Below, piece by piece: positions 1,735 to 7,491 of a stretch of DNA of 7,515 bases. Source of the DNA: Thermococcaceae archaeon (GTDB taxonomy: Archaea; Methanobacteriota_B; Thermococci; Thermococcales; Thermococcaceae); NCBI GenBank assembly GCA_026986455.1, contig JALSON010000220.1:1-7515 (forward strand). The letters run 5' to 3'. Each line of letters starts with the position of its first letter. Positions within the stretch are counted from its first letter, which is position 1. A program made the translations under genes and the position numbers. The notes beneath the pieces are model-generated. The model was given only the letters and a program-made list of their open reading frames with translations. It ran no database searches and was not told the origin of the DNA.

Positions 1735-1875
1735 GGGGGCATGGTGTAGCCTGGTCCATCATCGCGGGCTCCAGAGGTATGAGGACTTGCGGGTTTGCTG
1801 ATTTGGGGATGAGCCTTTGGAGCTCTGACCCGGAGAAACCCGCGGACCGGGGTTCAAATCCCCGTGCCCCCACCA
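1735..1875 (+). tRNA. tRNA-Trp (anticodon CCA) with intron, CCA end encoded
   Basis: The acceptor stem GGGGGCA (1735-1741) pairs with TGCCCCC (1865-1871). The discriminator is A1872 and the CCA tail is encoded at 1873-1875. The T-arm is CGGGG-TTCAAAT-CCCCG, and the anticodon stem is GCGGG (1764-1768) with CCCGC (1839-1843). The loop is CTCCAGA, with CCA at 1771-1773 as anticodon. A 63-nt intron (1775-1837) lies after position 37, the canonical archaeal site. A bulge-helix-bulge is visible: CTCC (1769-1772) pairs with GGAG (1832-1835), flanked by 3-nt bulges AGA (1773-1775) and AAA (1836-1838), which are cut by the splicing endonuclease. Removing the intron leaves a normal 7-nt anticodon loop. 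The D-stem is weak (GTGT with a U-U pair at 13-22). Open reading frames crossing this locus on either strand are spurious. Confidence 0.97.
1775..1837 (+). ncRNA. Box C/D 2'-O-methylation guide RNA inside the tRNA-Trp intron
   Basis: Box C is ATGAGGA (1779-1785), D' is CTGA (1798-1801), C' is GGGATGA (1806-1812) and D is CTGA (1825-1828). Both spacers, C to D' and C' to D, are exactly 12 nt, the archaeal optimum. By the D+5 rule, the guide before D (ending 1824) pairs G1820 with C34 of the anticodon, and the guide before D' (ending 1797) pairs G1793 with C39. This matches the known archaeal tRNA-Trp intron, which directs Cm34 and methylation at position 39. The D guide pairs longer with the unspliced RNA (it also covers 1775-1778), while the D' guide fits both forms. 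L7Ae, Nop5 and fibrillarin would be the protein partners. Confidence 0.93.
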
Positions 1876-3977: not shown

Positions 3978-4895
3978 ATGGGTAATGTGAACCTCAGGGA
4001 AATTGAATTCCTCGTTGAACTGTTAAATAAATACCCGATAGAGAGCCTCAGAAAGATAGCCGAGAGTGAGGGGATTGACTATTACCGCCTCAAGCGGATT
4101 TATGATAAGTACTACGGAAAGTATATCCAGGTAAATGCCATGTATAACATTTCACGAATAGGCCTGAAGAGCTTTGTTGCTTTCCTCTCGGTGCCGCGGA
4201 GTGAGCTCAGGGAAGTTGCATGGAGAATGTTTCAGAATCCATACGTCGTTTATTTAAACGCCATGTTCGGCTTTAAAAACGGAATCTCCGCCATTCTGCA
4301 CATACCCAGGGATCAGGTCGACCGGGTGGATGATCTGCTCGGAAGATACTCGGATGACTATGAGTACTATTCTGTCCTGTCTTACCCTCCATCAAAGGAC
4401 AAGAAGGAAACCGGAGAGTGGAACCTGAGCCATGATTATGCTGTTCTGATGGACATTTTGAAGTGGGATGCGAGAACCCCCATGAAGGAGATATCCAGAC
4501 AGCTCGGAAAGAGCAGGCCCACAATAAAATACATGATGAATCGTCTAAGGGAGGAGGGAATCCTGACGGGATTTACGGCGAACGTGGATACACCGGCGTA
4601 TGACCGCGGTGTTCTTGGCATAACAGACGAGATAAAAGGGAATCTGCTGGAGAGATTCAAGGATCACGAGATTATGATAGGGACTCTGAAGCCAAAGGGA
4701 TACATAATTGAGTGGTTCTTCTCGTCTAAAGAAGACCTGGGCACCAAGCTCTTTGAATTCAGCAGCTATGTGGAGAAGGTGGGCATTGAGTATTTTGACA
4801 TTCTGGAGGATCTGGAGAGAAGCAGGAAATACTACAGGTTCTCGAAGATGGTAAAAAAGGACGGCAGCAGATACCGCTCAATCTTAGAGTTCTAA
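3978..4895 (+). CDS. Tandem helix-turn-helix, Lrp-like transcriptional regulator (305 aa)
   Basis: This looks like a duplicated Lrp-type architecture. Residues 5-45 form a first helix-turn-helix (LREIEFLVELLNKYP, then ESLRKIAESEGIDYYRLKRIYDK). Residues 50-135 are an alpha/beta region resembling a sensor domain. Residues 152-205 are a clear AsnC-type winged helix (DYAVLMDILKWDARTPMKE, helix ISRQLGKSRPTIKYMMNRLREEG, wing ILTGFTANVD), and 210-285 form a second alpha/beta domain. There is no signal peptide, membrane segment or cysteine cluster. GAGG at 3970-3973 serves as ribosome binding site, 4 nt before the ATG at 3978. The divergent, promoter-sharing kinase gene is the most likely target besides autoregulation. 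The stop overlaps the 3' end of the SPASM protein gene by 12 bp. The effector and regulon are unknown; the N-terminal helix-turn-helix is less certain than the second. Confidence 0.9.
   Translation: MGNVNLREIEFLVELLNKYPIESLRKIAESEGIDYYRLKRIYDKYYGKYIQVNAMYNISRIGLKSFVAFLSVPRSELREVAWRMFQNPYVVYLNAMFGFKNGISAILHIPRDQVDRVDDLLGRYSDDYEYYSVLSYPPSKDKKETGEWNLSHDYAVLMDILKWDARTPMKEISRQLGKSRPTIKYMMNRLREEGILTGFTANVDTPAYDRGVLGITDEIKGNLLERFKDHEIMIGTLKPKGYIIEWFFSSKEDLGTKLFEFSSYVEKVGIEYFDILEDLERSRKYYRFSKMVKKDGSRYRSILEF
4853..4858 (-). terminator. Possible oligo-T terminator of the SPASM gene, antisense inside the regulator
   Basis: The minus strand has CCTTTTTTACC 25 nt after the TAA of the SPASM protein gene. 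Because the two genes converge and overlap, this signal sits within the coding region of the regulator, where it reads as Lys-Lys codons. Confidence 0.35.
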
Positions 4896-5816
4896 GGGAC
4901 AGAACTCCACACCGAAAGGATCCCCGCTCCCCCTGTACTCAAGAGCCCTGCAGTCGTGGCATATATACTTAAACGGGCATGACCTGCATACCTCAATTCC
5001 GTCCTTGGTGAGCTTCCAGAAGCTTTTGAGCCGCTTTTTCCTCATGAGATTTTTTATGCTGGCTTCCCTCATATCCCCTATAACAAAGTTTCTGAGCAGC
5101 GGACAGGGGAGTGCGTAGCCGTCAGCGGTTATCGCCAGCGTTCCGGCCAGACAGTCGTGGTATTTTGAATTTGTCGGGTTCAGCGTGCGTTTGAGCTCTA
5201 TCGTGTTGAAATCCACCTTCCGGAATGAACCTGGGTAGAGCACATCAACATATATCTCTCCGGGGAAGCTCAAACCGCTCCTCTCAAGCTCATCAAACTG
5301 CCTGTATGTTGCCATTATCAGCGCTCCATATGCCCATCCGTATTCCCCAAGCTTCCTGAGGTTTTCTCCAGAATATTCAAGCTCCACTATTACCCTGACA
5401 TCGTCCAGAGGCACAACCCTATCCATGTCCTCAATTCTGACGACAGCGTAGACCTCCGGTATCCCAATAGAGGCGGCGTAATTCGCCATTCTCATGAGGT
5501 AATCTACACTGTCATAGTTCGTCAGGTAGATTTCCCTTCCCTTTCTGGCGCGGAACTCCCTTATAAGCTCCTTCATCCTCTCCACGCTGAGCGGTTCTCT
5601 CCTGAGGATAAACCTGTTGTTCCCGATGCATCCGATGGATCTCGGAATTCCTGTGACCTCAAAAAATCTTCCTTTTCCCCTGCCAAGCTGGAGAATCAGT
5701 CTCTCAAGCCTGCCTGAATGCGCCCTGTAGCTCCACGGGGGTTTTCCAACGGCGGTTATATTCAGCCCGCCCTCCACCTCAACCTGAATCGCACTCTCAT
5801 AGGCAACCCTCTCCAT
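4884..5816 (-). CDS. SPASM-domain protein with degenerate radical-SAM half (310 aa)
   Basis: The C-terminal third is a complete SPASM domain able to hold two auxiliary [4Fe-4S] clusters. It shows C222-x10-G233-x4-C238, then C277-x2-C280-x5-C286-x2-C289, then C306. In the usual pattern the last step of the second group is x3 rather than x2. SPASM domains normally follow a radical-SAM TIM barrel that modifies peptides or proteins. Here the barrel half (about 50-200) lacks the CX3CX2C motif. Only C63 (SIGCIGNN) remains, and 8 residues later RREPL (72-76) stands where GGEPL would bind SAM. The following helix/strand pattern (SVERMKELIREF, EIYLTNYDS, IPEVYAVV) still looks like a barrel. About 30-40 residues between these motifs appear missing. 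ATG 5816 is chosen because GGTGATG (5829-5823) precedes it; GTG 5828 and ATG 5825 lie at the expected transcription start. The substrate is unknown; a non-catalytic Fe-S or scaffold role is possible. Confidence 0.85.
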   Translation of the reverse strand: MERVAYESAIQVEVEGGLNITAVGKPPWSYRAHSGRLERLILQLGRGKGRFFEVTGIPRSIGCIGNNRFILRREPLSVERMKELIREFRARKGREIYLTNYDSVDYLMRMANYAASIGIPEVYAVVRIEDMDRVVPLDDVRVIVELEYSGENLRKLGEYGWAYGALIMATYRQFDELERSGLSFPGEIYVDVLYPGSFRKVDFNTIELKRTLNPTNSKYHDCLAGTLAITADGYALPCPLLRNFVIGDMREASIKNLMRKKRLKSFWKLTKDGIEVCRSCPFKYICHDCRALEYRGSGDPFGVEFCPLEL

Positions 5817-5850
5817 TGCATTCATCACCAGAAAAAGGTCGAGGGCTTTG

Positions 5851-5858
5851 TATATATA
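5851..5858 (-). promoter_or_regulatory. TATA box of the SPASM gene
   Basis: TATATATA, flanked by an A-rich BRE-like stretch (AGAAAAAG on the minus strand), predicts a start near 5828. That is about 12 nt upstream of ATG 5816 and excludes the GTG at 5828 as a start with a usable ribosome binding site. Confidence 0.65.
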
Positions 5859-5900
5859 CTTTTTCTATACGGATTTTGCTTACTACTTGGTTTAGTTTGC

Positions 5901-5906
5901 AAAAAA
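5901..5906 (-). terminator. Oligo-T terminator after moaE
   Basis: The minus strand reads ACATTTTTTGC, with the T-run 23 nt past the moaE TGA, and no stem is evident. It separates the moaDE unit from the SPASM gene promoter. Confidence 0.5.
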
Positions 5907-5928: not shown

Positions 5929-6357
5929 TCACCCAGCCCTGATGTGCCGGCCACCCTCAATCCAGAATGCTCCCTCATCGGTTACCTCCTTCTTCCAGAC
6001 CGGGACCCTCCTCTTAACCTCATCAACCGCCCAGATGCAGGCTTCGAATGCTTCCTTTCTGTGTTTTCCTGAGGCTATCACAAGTATCGTGTCCTCCCCG
6101 ACATCAAGTTCACCATATCTGTGCCATATGAGCATGTCCTCTATCGGGAACTTTCTCAGCCCTTCCTCCCGTATACGCTCCATCTCAGCAACCGCCATAT
6201 CCTCGTAGGCCTCGTAGATGAGCTTCAGCACCTTTCTTCCGTGGCTCTCATTCCTAACCTTCCCGAGAAAGATCACTATCCCCCCAGCTCTCGGCGATGA
6301 AATAAGCCTTACAGCCTCTGAAATGTCAAAAGCATCCCTTGTAATCCTGCACTTCAT
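5929..6357 (-). CDS. moaE: Molybdopterin (tungstopterin) synthase catalytic subunit MoaE, 142 aa
   Basis: MoaE forms a heterotetramer with MoaD and inserts two sulfurs into precursor Z (cPMP) to make the dithiolene of molybdopterin. In Thermococcales the cofactor mainly serves tungsten enzymes such as aldehyde ferredoxin oxidoreductases and some formate dehydrogenases. Seen in the protein: FLGKVRN (30-36, with R35), LIYEAYEDMA (46-55), WHRYGELDVGE (78-88), SGKHRKEAFEAC (96-107, with H99 and R100) and DEVKRRVPVWKKE (112-124). K115 and K122 keep the 7-residue spacing of the catalytic lysines K119/K126 of E. coli MoaE. ATG 6357 is preferred to GTG 6366. GAGGTG (6369-6364) overlaps the moaD TGA stop and sits 6 nt before 6357, so the two genes are probably translated from one transcript. 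Length is normal. Confidence 0.97.
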   Translation of the reverse strand: MKCRITRDAFDISEAVRLISSPRAGGIVIFLGKVRNESHGRKVLKLIYEAYEDMAVAEMERIREEGLRKFPIEDMLIWHRYGELDVGEDTILVIASGKHRKEAFEACIWAVDEVKRRVPVWKKEVTDEGAFWIEGGRHIRAG

Positions 6358-6367
6358 TCCAACCACC

Positions 6368-6631
6368 TCAACCCCCGCTCACCGGCGGGAACAGCGCCAC
6401 GATGTCGCCATCATCGAGAGGTTCGTCAAATGATGCATACCTCCCGTTCCTCGATACATTCACATCAGCGTCCTCATCCTGGGCGAAGACTTCGTTTCTA
6501 AGCTCCGGATGCCTCTCCTTCAGCATCTCAAGCAGCTCTCCAATCCGGATTCCATCTGGAACCTCAAGTTCCTCCTCTCCAATGCCGATCAGAGATCTGA
6601 ATCTGGCAAAATAGCGCACTTTAACCCTCAT
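6368..6631 (-). CDS. moaD: Molybdopterin synthase sulfur carrier subunit MoaD, 87 aa
   Basis: This is a ubiquitin-fold sulfur carrier. Its C-terminal Gly is adenylated (by a MoeB/E1-like enzyme encoded elsewhere) and turned into a thiocarboxylate, which donates sulfur to MoaE-bound precursor. The sequence shows the beta-grasp opening RVKVRYFARFRSLIG (2-16), a central helix GELLEMLKERHPEL (31-44), RNGRYASFDEPLDDGDIVALFPPVSGG (61-87) with the DGD turn, and the required terminal GG (86-87). A longer start at GTG 6640 is open, but GGTGGTGAGG directly precedes ATG 6631 and serves as its ribosome binding site. It is the first gene of a moaD-moaE unit, with moaE starting 10 nt after its stop. Archaeal small archaeal modifier proteins share the fold and GG tail, but adjacency to moaE and the FPPVSGG end favour MoaD. 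Confidence 0.96.
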   Translation of the reverse strand: MRVKVRYFARFRSLIGIGEEELEVPDGIRIGELLEMLKERHPELRNEVFAQDEDADVNVSRNGRYASFDEPLDDGDIVALFPPVSGG

Positions 6632-6660
6632 CCTCACCACCGGATAAAGTTCTCGGGAGG

Positions 6661-6747: not shown

Positions 6748-6922
6748 CTATAACACTATCCGGGCAGTATCCGCTGCCCTGCCATCAACGTAAAGCTCCA
6801 ACTCTGCATTCTGGCCTGTCAAGTAAGTACTCTTAACCTTAACCGTGAAACTCATGAGATTGCTCCCTCAAGTTTTGCTGTACTGCCTCCAAACTAACAC
6901 CAGACTGAGCATCCGCTGACAC
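6748..6922 (-). pseudogene. Frameshifted remnant of a beta-rich (Ig/CARDB-like) protein
   Basis: Two short frames with coding character abut. The first runs from GTG 6922 (overlapping the TAG of the upstream membrane gene) to TAA 6839 and gives SADAQSGVSLEAVQQNLREQ followed by SHEF. The second, one base out of frame, ends at TAG 6748 and gives FTVKVKSTYLTGQNAELELY then VDGRAADTARIVL. Skipping one base in TTTC (6850-6847) joins them into HEF-TVKVKST. The joined C-part has the alternating strand pattern and the LYVDG turn seen in Ig-like repeats of archaeal surface proteins. Both the beginning and the end of such a protein are missing. An alternative is a genuine 35-aa ORF at 6855-6748 with GGAG upstream. 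The family is a guess; the frameshift reading is supported only by this sequence. Confidence 0.45.
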
Positions 6923-7491
6923 TACTTTTTGTGGTTAGTTTTCTCATTAACAATCCCCTCTATTGTGTTGCTATCCTCATATCCATTTGTTGTTTTCAAA
7001 AGTTTTAATGCACCGAGGATGTGAATTGTGCTAAAGGCTAAAATTGCCAATGTCTGGAAAGGTGACTCTGTAAATGTCAGTAGCATCCCACCCCAGAACA
7101 AGAAGAGGTAGGTCATTATGCTGCCTTTCCACTTACCTGTAAGCTGTACAATCAAATAAAATGCAACACTTACCAAGGCAATTCTTGATAAGAATGCTAG
7201 GTATATTAATGCTCCAAGGGTCAATCCATCCACCAGATGAAGAGGTCTTAATGCCTTGGCGAGTATTAGGAATCCAAAGATCACAAGCCAGCCCAATATA
7301 CCACTTTTTGTTTCTGCCATTATTGTACTCCAGAATAAGAGAACGTATGGTAAGCCCAAATAAATATTCAGCAGATACCCAAGTCGCTTCTGCTCAAGGG
7401 TACTAAATGTAGCAAAGTATACTACCATAAAAACAAGCAATAACACAGGAATAAAAACTAAAAGAAATGCAGGAATTCCCCCAAAATTCAT
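6922..7491 (-). CDS. Unrecognised polytopic membrane protein (189 aa)
   Basis: No family is recognised. The protein is strongly hydrophobic, with about six membrane segments near residues 6-29, 38-58, 65-81, 90-116, 124-141 and 145-166. Short charged connections separate them (TLEQKR at 31-36, ETK at 60-62, TGKWKGS at 118-124). A soluble, polar C-terminal tail of about 23 residues ends in NEKTNHKK. Positive charges around 35-36 and 119-122 suggest those connections are cytoplasmic. Start ATG 7491 is preceded by GGGGGATGAG. No TATA box is correctly placed inside the window, so the promoter or an upstream partner gene lies beyond 7515. The base composition is visibly more AT-rich than the metabolic genes to the left, and the product has no obvious housekeeping role. 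Together with the broken gene downstream this suggests a recently acquired or decaying segment. Confidence 0.8.
   Translation of the reverse strand: MNFGGIPAFLLVFIPVLLLVFMVVYFATFSTLEQKRLGYLLNIYLGLPYVLLFWSTIMAETKSGILGWLVIFGFLILAKALRPLHLVDGLTLGALIYLAFLSRIALVSVAFYLIVQLTGKWKGSIMTYLFLFWGGMLLTFTESPFQTLAILAFSTIHILGALKLLKTTNGYEDSNTIEGIVNEKTNHKK

Follow-up and report, generated by a model that had tools for sequence, protein, structure and literature searches.

Gene Q, a SPASM-domain gene in a 7,515-nucleotide (nt) stretch of a Thermococcaceae archaeon genome (the window; GenBank assembly GCA_026986455.1, contig JALSON010000220.1), almost certainly encodes a SPASM protein that does without S-adenosylmethionine (SAM). 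The CX3CX2C motif of the radical-SAM cluster is absent from the window protein and its relatives (0/121 sequences), and all seven SPASM cysteines occur together in 122 of 123 Q sequences. Orthologues, with E values of 5.1e-44 or better, are found in 92 of the 94 Thermococcaceae genomes; none of the 74 genomes with completeness of 90% or more and contamination of 5% or less is without one. The protein features are as follows.

4884..5816, minus strand: gene Q, SPASM-domain protein without CX3CX2C, 310 amino acids (aa), from the open reading frame (ORF) call with Pfam and NCBIfam scans
4899..5153, minus strand: SPASM region from C226 to C310, C-X10-G-X4-C, CX2CX5CX2C and C, from sequence and the PF13186 match; cysteines in 122–123 of 123 sequences
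5616..5642, minus strand: motif RSIGCIGNN (residues 63–71) with the lone N-terminal C67; S64, G66, C67, G69 and N70 in 123/123, R63 in 122, N71 in 121
5511..5522, minus strand: TNYD (residues 103–106), after model strand beta-2 (99–103), the place of GGEP; Y105 in 123/123

Residues are numbered on the 314-aa form that results if the ORF begins at the GTG at 5828. The ATG at 5816, which follows a GGTG site and is the start position of the aligned relatives, gives the 310-aa form; its numbers are lower by four and reproduce those of a first-pass annotation made from the window sequence (C63, 222, 238, 277, 280, 286, 289 and 306).

Conservation and distribution of Q

On its sequence Q belongs to the SPASM domain by two curated cut-offs, scoring 35.8 bits for PF13186 (cut-off 21.5; best Pfam stretch 229–285) and 35.2 bits for TIGR04085 (cut-off 27). 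Fourteen Pfam families are matched by at least one of 55 Q members at E ≤ 10; PF04055 (Radical_SAM) is not among them and is matched by 0/55, in a search whose HMMER filters drop most matches above 0.1. The first-pass annotation had reported seven SPASM cysteines, a single N-terminal cysteine (C67 here) and no CX3CX2C, and all three observations hold across the family: these eight cysteines are present in 123/123 sequences, the window included, except C293, which is present in 122. The protein with the altered cysteine, P0106 of Thermococcus sp. Bubb.Bath, has proline at C293, a position in the predicted three-cysteine cluster. Since mean column identity in the 55-sequence alignment is 56%, the conservation of the cysteines exceeds chance. 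Also found in 123/123 sequences are I61, S64, G66, G69, N70, F92, Y105, D134, E149 and D195, which indicates that the N-terminal half of Q is under constraint and is no relic, and, towards the C-terminus, G237, P243, R246, W271, H291, D292 and R294. RSIGCIGNN, TNYD and CHDC are conserved motifs specific to Q. The canonical SPASM pattern has CX3C at a place where Q has CX2C, as do several archaeal relatives (CGGC). In solved SPASM enzymes the cysteines are divided four and three between two clusters; by analogy, C281, C284, C290 and C310 of Q would hold one [4Fe-4S] cluster, and C226, C242 and C293 the other.

SPASM enzymes of the usual kind abound in the class: 21 of the 23 SPASM ORFs of other families carry CX3CX2C (of the remaining two, one is cut by the edge of its stretch and one is L126, described below). 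Q might on that account be taken for the product of a local deletion or sequencing error, or for a decayed radical-SAM gene. The 0/121 count, the occurrence in 92/94 genomes and the invariant barrel residues refute this, leaving it a probability close to nil; together with a conserved promoter element, they give strong support to the view of the first-pass annotation that the frame does not reflect simple decay. The homologue search proposed there returned neither close relatives carrying CX3CX2C nor poorly conserved SPASM cysteines. Ten complete genomes hold 32 SPASM matches, of which 28 were read; the motif was absent from 9/9 Q proteins and present in 19/19 other SPASM proteins. A 333-aa SPASM relative from outside the Thermococcaceae (L126:2062-3063, genome G113) keeps GGEP and lacks CX3CX2C.

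Q appears confined to the family. All 94 genomes match the Q profile at 1e-3, two of them (G064 and G091, 75 and 80% complete) through other SPASM proteins only. Among the 21 genomes examined from elsewhere in the class, eight match at 1e-5, the matches listed spanning only the SPASM end; no full-length relative is among those listed for the 21. A scan of genome contigs gave seven Q loci, all Thermococcaceae, and the named proteins among the 120 matches listed of 124 come from Thermococcus, Pyrococcus, Palaeococcus or unnamed Thermococcaceae/Thermococci.

Predicted fold

The AlphaFold2 model of Q consists of a six-strand half-barrel followed by the SPASM domain, and its nearest structural neighbours are radical-SAM enzymes; a radical-SAM-type partial barrel is thereby predicted. 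In radical-SAM enzymes GGEP follows beta-2. In the model beta-2 comprises residues 99–103 and is followed by TNYD (T103 in 119/123, N104 in 120/123, Y105 in 123/123 and D106 in 122/123 sequences). The sequence RREPL, which had been assigned to the GGEPL place, instead occupies residues 76–80, before helix alpha-1 (82–94), and is variable in the 55-sequence alignment; we reject it as a GGEPL relic. The proposal that the barrel has lost SAM chemistry and kept the auxiliary clusters fits both the sequences and the predicted fold. We propose that a pocket lies near C67, D106, D134, E149 and D195, where SAM would sit. In hhalign comparisons the SPASM part aligned well (probability 99); the barrel aligned only when a global alignment was forced, and S64 and C67 then coincide with cysteines two and three of CX3CX2C, a weak indication. 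A profile search with Q against PDB sequences gave no match better than E 0.007; those returned were a de novo protein and the SPASM portions of anSME and BtrN.

Relation to named families

The best NCBIfam match of Q is TIGR04193 (GwsS, grasp-with-spasm system SPASM domain peptide maturase), at 7.7e-18; it is matched by 55/55 members and in some genomes the match begins at about profile position 124 and extends beyond SPASM. Nevertheless Q reaches 65 bits where 175 are required, TIGR04193 exceeds its cut-off in 0/94 Thermococcaceae genomes, and Q differs in being a near-universal family gene beside moaE. GwsS proteins, too, are not known to carry CX3CX2C. Three further families, TIGR04150 (pseudo-rSAM), TIGR04304 (GeoRSP SPASM protein) and TIGR04347 (pseudo-SAM/SPASM), resemble Q by name in standing outside normal radical-SAM chemistry. 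TIGR04150 is matched at E ≤ 1 by 43/55 members and TIGR04304 by 51/55, but Q scores 17.5 bits against a cut-off of 250 and 11.2 against 300, respectively; TIGR04347 is not listed among its NCBIfam matches. TIGR04317 (cut-off 380 bits) is not matched by the window protein at E ≤ 1 and is weakly matched by 24/55 members (best E 6.4e-5). Filing Q under GwsS, GeoRSP, TIGR04150 or TIGR04317 was rejected, as the cut-offs are missed. Relative to solved radical-SAM/SPASM enzymes (ChlB 9gm3, CteB 5wgg, anSME 4k36), Q has 11–17% identity and has neither CX3CX2C nor GGEP.

NCBIfam thus already names pseudo-rSAM and SPASM-partner families, so that the kind of protein to which Q belongs is not wholly new and the suggestion of a new Fe–S (iron–sulfur) protein has to be toned down. 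Judged by sequence, Q is nevertheless distinct: its scores fall short of the cut-offs of those named families that it matches, it occurs in nearly every genome of one archaeal family, and it possesses invariant motifs not shared with them. No published description of Q was found in literature searches, which had most subscription journals beyond their reach.

Gene neighbourhood and promoter element

The window places Q between a convergent helix-turn-helix (HTH) gene and genes for molybdopterin synthase, with a conserved element in its promoter.

5825..5829, minus strand: GGTGA, probably a ribosome site; GGTG is at the same place in most relatives displayed
5851..5859, minus strand: TATA-like stretch GTATATATA, conserved in aligned promoters; putative role
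5864..5905, minus strand: 42-nt promoter element made up of an imperfect palindrome, TTTTGCAAACT...AGTAGTAAGCAAAAT, and of ATCCGTATAG; probably bound by a regulator; window score 56.6
5929..6366, minus strand: MoaE, molybdopterin synthase large subunit, directly upstream of Q (PF02391, E 6.3e-37)
6368..6640, minus strand: MoaD/ThiS-like sulfur carrier (PF02597, E 2.1e-20; TIGR01687 above cut-off)
3978..4895, plus strand: convergent 305-aa HTH protein, candidate Q regulator (PF13412, E 1.4e-9)

Examination of neighbours across the Thermococcaceae, another proposal of the first-pass annotation, covered 62 intact loci that could be tested for moaE; in 56 of them it lies directly upstream of Q, with a gap of ∼100–237 nt; in these counts near-identical loci were merged and three fragments of the broken L064 copy left out. 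The HTH gene lies convergently beside Q in 52/63 loci and is matched in 86/94 Thermococcaceae genomes, seven of the eight without it belonging to one genus, g4. In Pyrococcus (g3) the moaE–Q pair is kept in 8/8 loci and the HTH gene is found elsewhere, with other former neighbours. Some g4 genomes carry two Q copies, A beside moaE and B beside the HTH gene. The copies form separate, well-supported tree groups; A is weakly grouped with Pyrococcus. Within this genus, copy A by moaE is in pieces in G077 (L064), G078 has a remnant of Q next to an HTH gene that is split (G078:C1:1775144-1776232), and only copy B was found in G080.

Elsewhere in the window, a 189-aa, hydrophobic-looking ORF at 6922-7491 (minus strand) matches nothing in Pfam or NCBIfam at E ≤ 1. 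Positions 1735-1875 (plus strand) resemble an intron-bearing tRNA, which we take to be tRNA-Trp, with a box C/D RNA in its intron; Rfam sR3 scores 34.9 bits there, under its gathering score of 41, and ARAGORN found no tRNA.

The 42-nt element sits immediately upstream of the TATA-like stretch and has the consensus TTTTTGCA.ACTA.T...AGT.GT.TGCAAAATC.GAATAG (59 promoters; lower-case positions raised). Among 75 Q entries 71 score at least 28.6, the best score in 2.25 Mb of block-shuffled DNA being 4.6; this count is partly self-consistent, as 59 of the promoters scored had gone into building the matrix, and some genomes are repeated. The four entries without the element (L052, L060, L062 and L064) are all g4 copies A. 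The palindrome core, with three mismatches allowed, occurs in 85/94 genomes (reversed control, 51/94), and the full palindrome in 27/30 (reversed control, 0/30). TFB-RF1 was rejected as its binder, the site given in the text of PMC5937170, TCTGAANTTCAGA, being unlike the Q element.

The convergent gene raises the possibility that Q serves as a sensor, of redox state or of clusters, together with the 305-aa HTH protein, which would bind the palindrome and control Q and surface proteins. In favour of this, besides the adjacency of the two genes, are the g4 copies, where those on the HTH side keep the element (L051, L059, L061 and L063) and those on the moaE side do not (L052, L060, L062 and L064), and seven g4 genomes in which the HTH gene is missing and Q has no second copy. 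However, the Pyrococcus HTH gene is located elsewhere, and a palindrome site is present in G073, which has no HTH match and so counts against the HTH protein as sole binder. A conserved site, moreover, implies control of Q rather than sensing by Q, and HTH binding is putative. We regard a sensor as improbable. The G073 site (L277, G073:C1:877312) is a good one.

The element also precedes other genes. A ∼270-aa lipoprotein gene with a weak DUF6612 match, below cut-off, carries it in nine stretches, and lipoprotein, secreted or DUF4855 genes follow it in L213, L214, L216-L218, L224-L228, L263-L265, L267, L272, L278, L281 and L282; the gene set could possibly be a surface-protein regulon. In some genomes it is shared by small proteins of 63–81 aa (IIPWARPNP), which have no Pfam match. 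In six stretches (L212, L215, L219, L220, L229 and L230) their gene and a MoeA-like one are arranged tail-to-tail, and a MoeA-like gene was seen in 19 of 20 stretches examined, Pfam-confirmed in two.

Such a small protein could be a substrate if Q were a GwsS relative that modifies a peptide or small protein, perhaps one under the shared promoter element. The TIGR04193 match, with its extension beyond SPASM, would fit this. Yet that match stays below cut-off throughout, and the ATP-grasp partner of GwsS, TIGR04192, is found in 0/94 genomes, although control genomes are equally silent. The small protein itself is found in 52/94 genomes (E ≤ 0.1) and in none of g3, whereas Q is near-universal. 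Peptide modification by Q thus seems rather unlikely.

The tungsten maturase and the function of Q

Only two PF13186 proteins are found in 6/10 complete genomes. The second, of ∼375 aa, is the tungsten-oxidoreductase maturase TIGR04317 (four scanned, 490–526 bits against 380), which besides Q is the sole SPASM protein in all ten. TIGR04317 is above cut-off in 10/10 complete genomes, 87/94 Thermococcaceae and 0/21 other genomes of the class. In 10/10 loci its gene adjoins an ORF of 605–628 aa, which is AOR in both loci where this was tested; in each of five loci tested it also adjoins a MoaD/ThiS-like gene. The same arrangement is described for T. kodakarensis TK1064-TK1066 in the main text of PMC11323500, which also gives TK2118 a role in tungsten-cofactor synthesis and in which TK2114-TK2116 do not occur. 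Because coordinates in that paper match L170 and L074, we infer that G024 is T. kodakarensis; if it is strain KOD1, the Q orthologue of that strain lies at about 1,897,182-1,898,100 of G024:C1, on the minus strand.

Because of the adjacency to moaE, and because no SPASM proteins but Q and the tungsten maturase were found in all ten genomes, the evidence points, weakly and short of proof, to a tungstopterin context for Q. Our favoured reading, to which we give a probability of about 0.2, is that Q is a SAM-inactive Fe–S accessory of tungsten-cofactor assembly. It would keep a radical-SAM-type barrel yet not cleave SAM, and would hold two [4Fe-4S] clusters, one of them three-cysteine and open-sited; this open-sited cluster would pass sulfur to the MoaD/MoaE step.

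Several observations weigh against tungsten-cofactor assembly. moaE is not upstream of Q in 6/62 loci (L048, L049, L051, L059, L061 and L065), and Q is served by a separate promoter element, which would not be expected of a gene sharing an operon with moaE. The element is shared mostly with surface-protein genes, and the lipoprotein, ∼1000-aa secreted and DUF4855 genes that it precedes have no known tungsten role. The 63–81-aa moeA-neighbour family carries it in only 10/29 loci, which were not chosen for the element (eight by core, with reversed control 0, and five by matrix, overlapping; L261 was excluded, having no alignment). Its presence before secreted-protein genes and in so few moeA-neighbour loci makes the tungsten reading weak. 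A Ubl/E1 route is already present in T. kodakarensis, which is also able to use elemental sulfur (S0) (PMC11323500).

Q and TIGR04317 proteins are alike in their SPASM domain, their tungstopterin surroundings and their restriction, at the thresholds used, to Thermococcaceae (92 and 87 of 94 genomes, and none of the 21 others), but the TIGR04317 maturases read carry CX3CX2C. In line with the suggestion of the first-pass annotation that Q partners another maturase, Q may be an electron-transfer or scaffold partner of the TK1064-type maturase, which would cleave SAM while Q fed it electrons or held the tungsten-enzyme substrate through its SPASM clusters. NCBIfam names one such paired system, GeoRSP, composed of a radical-SAM/SPASM protein and a SPASM-domain protein, and these are the two SPASM proteins common to the ten genomes. 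Nevertheless the genes lie apart, Q beside moaE and the maturase beside AOR; such a family distribution is common to many genes; and the TIGR04317 match of Q is weak. We hold this partnership to be a tentative possibility, about as probable as our favoured reading.

A stronger version of our favoured reading, and one that we consider very doubtful, holds that in the Thermococcaceae a radical-SAM/SPASM enzyme became a sulfur carrier that needs no SAM, whose open-sited three-cysteine cluster would deliver sulfide to MoaD/MoaE under its own promoter switch. If so, Q would be one missing sulfur donor of the tungsten cofactor, and a SPASM cluster would have a job that involves no SAM chemistry.

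Q is near-universal in one archaeal family that includes the genetically tractable T. kodakarensis and P. furiosus. Because its SAM-cluster motif is gone and its SPASM cysteines are kept, it could reveal what SPASM clusters do alone, for which active enzymes offer no clean test. Growth on maltodextrin depends on GOR (main text of PMC11323500); should the tungsten link be true, Q would fill an unknown step in making the GOR cofactor.
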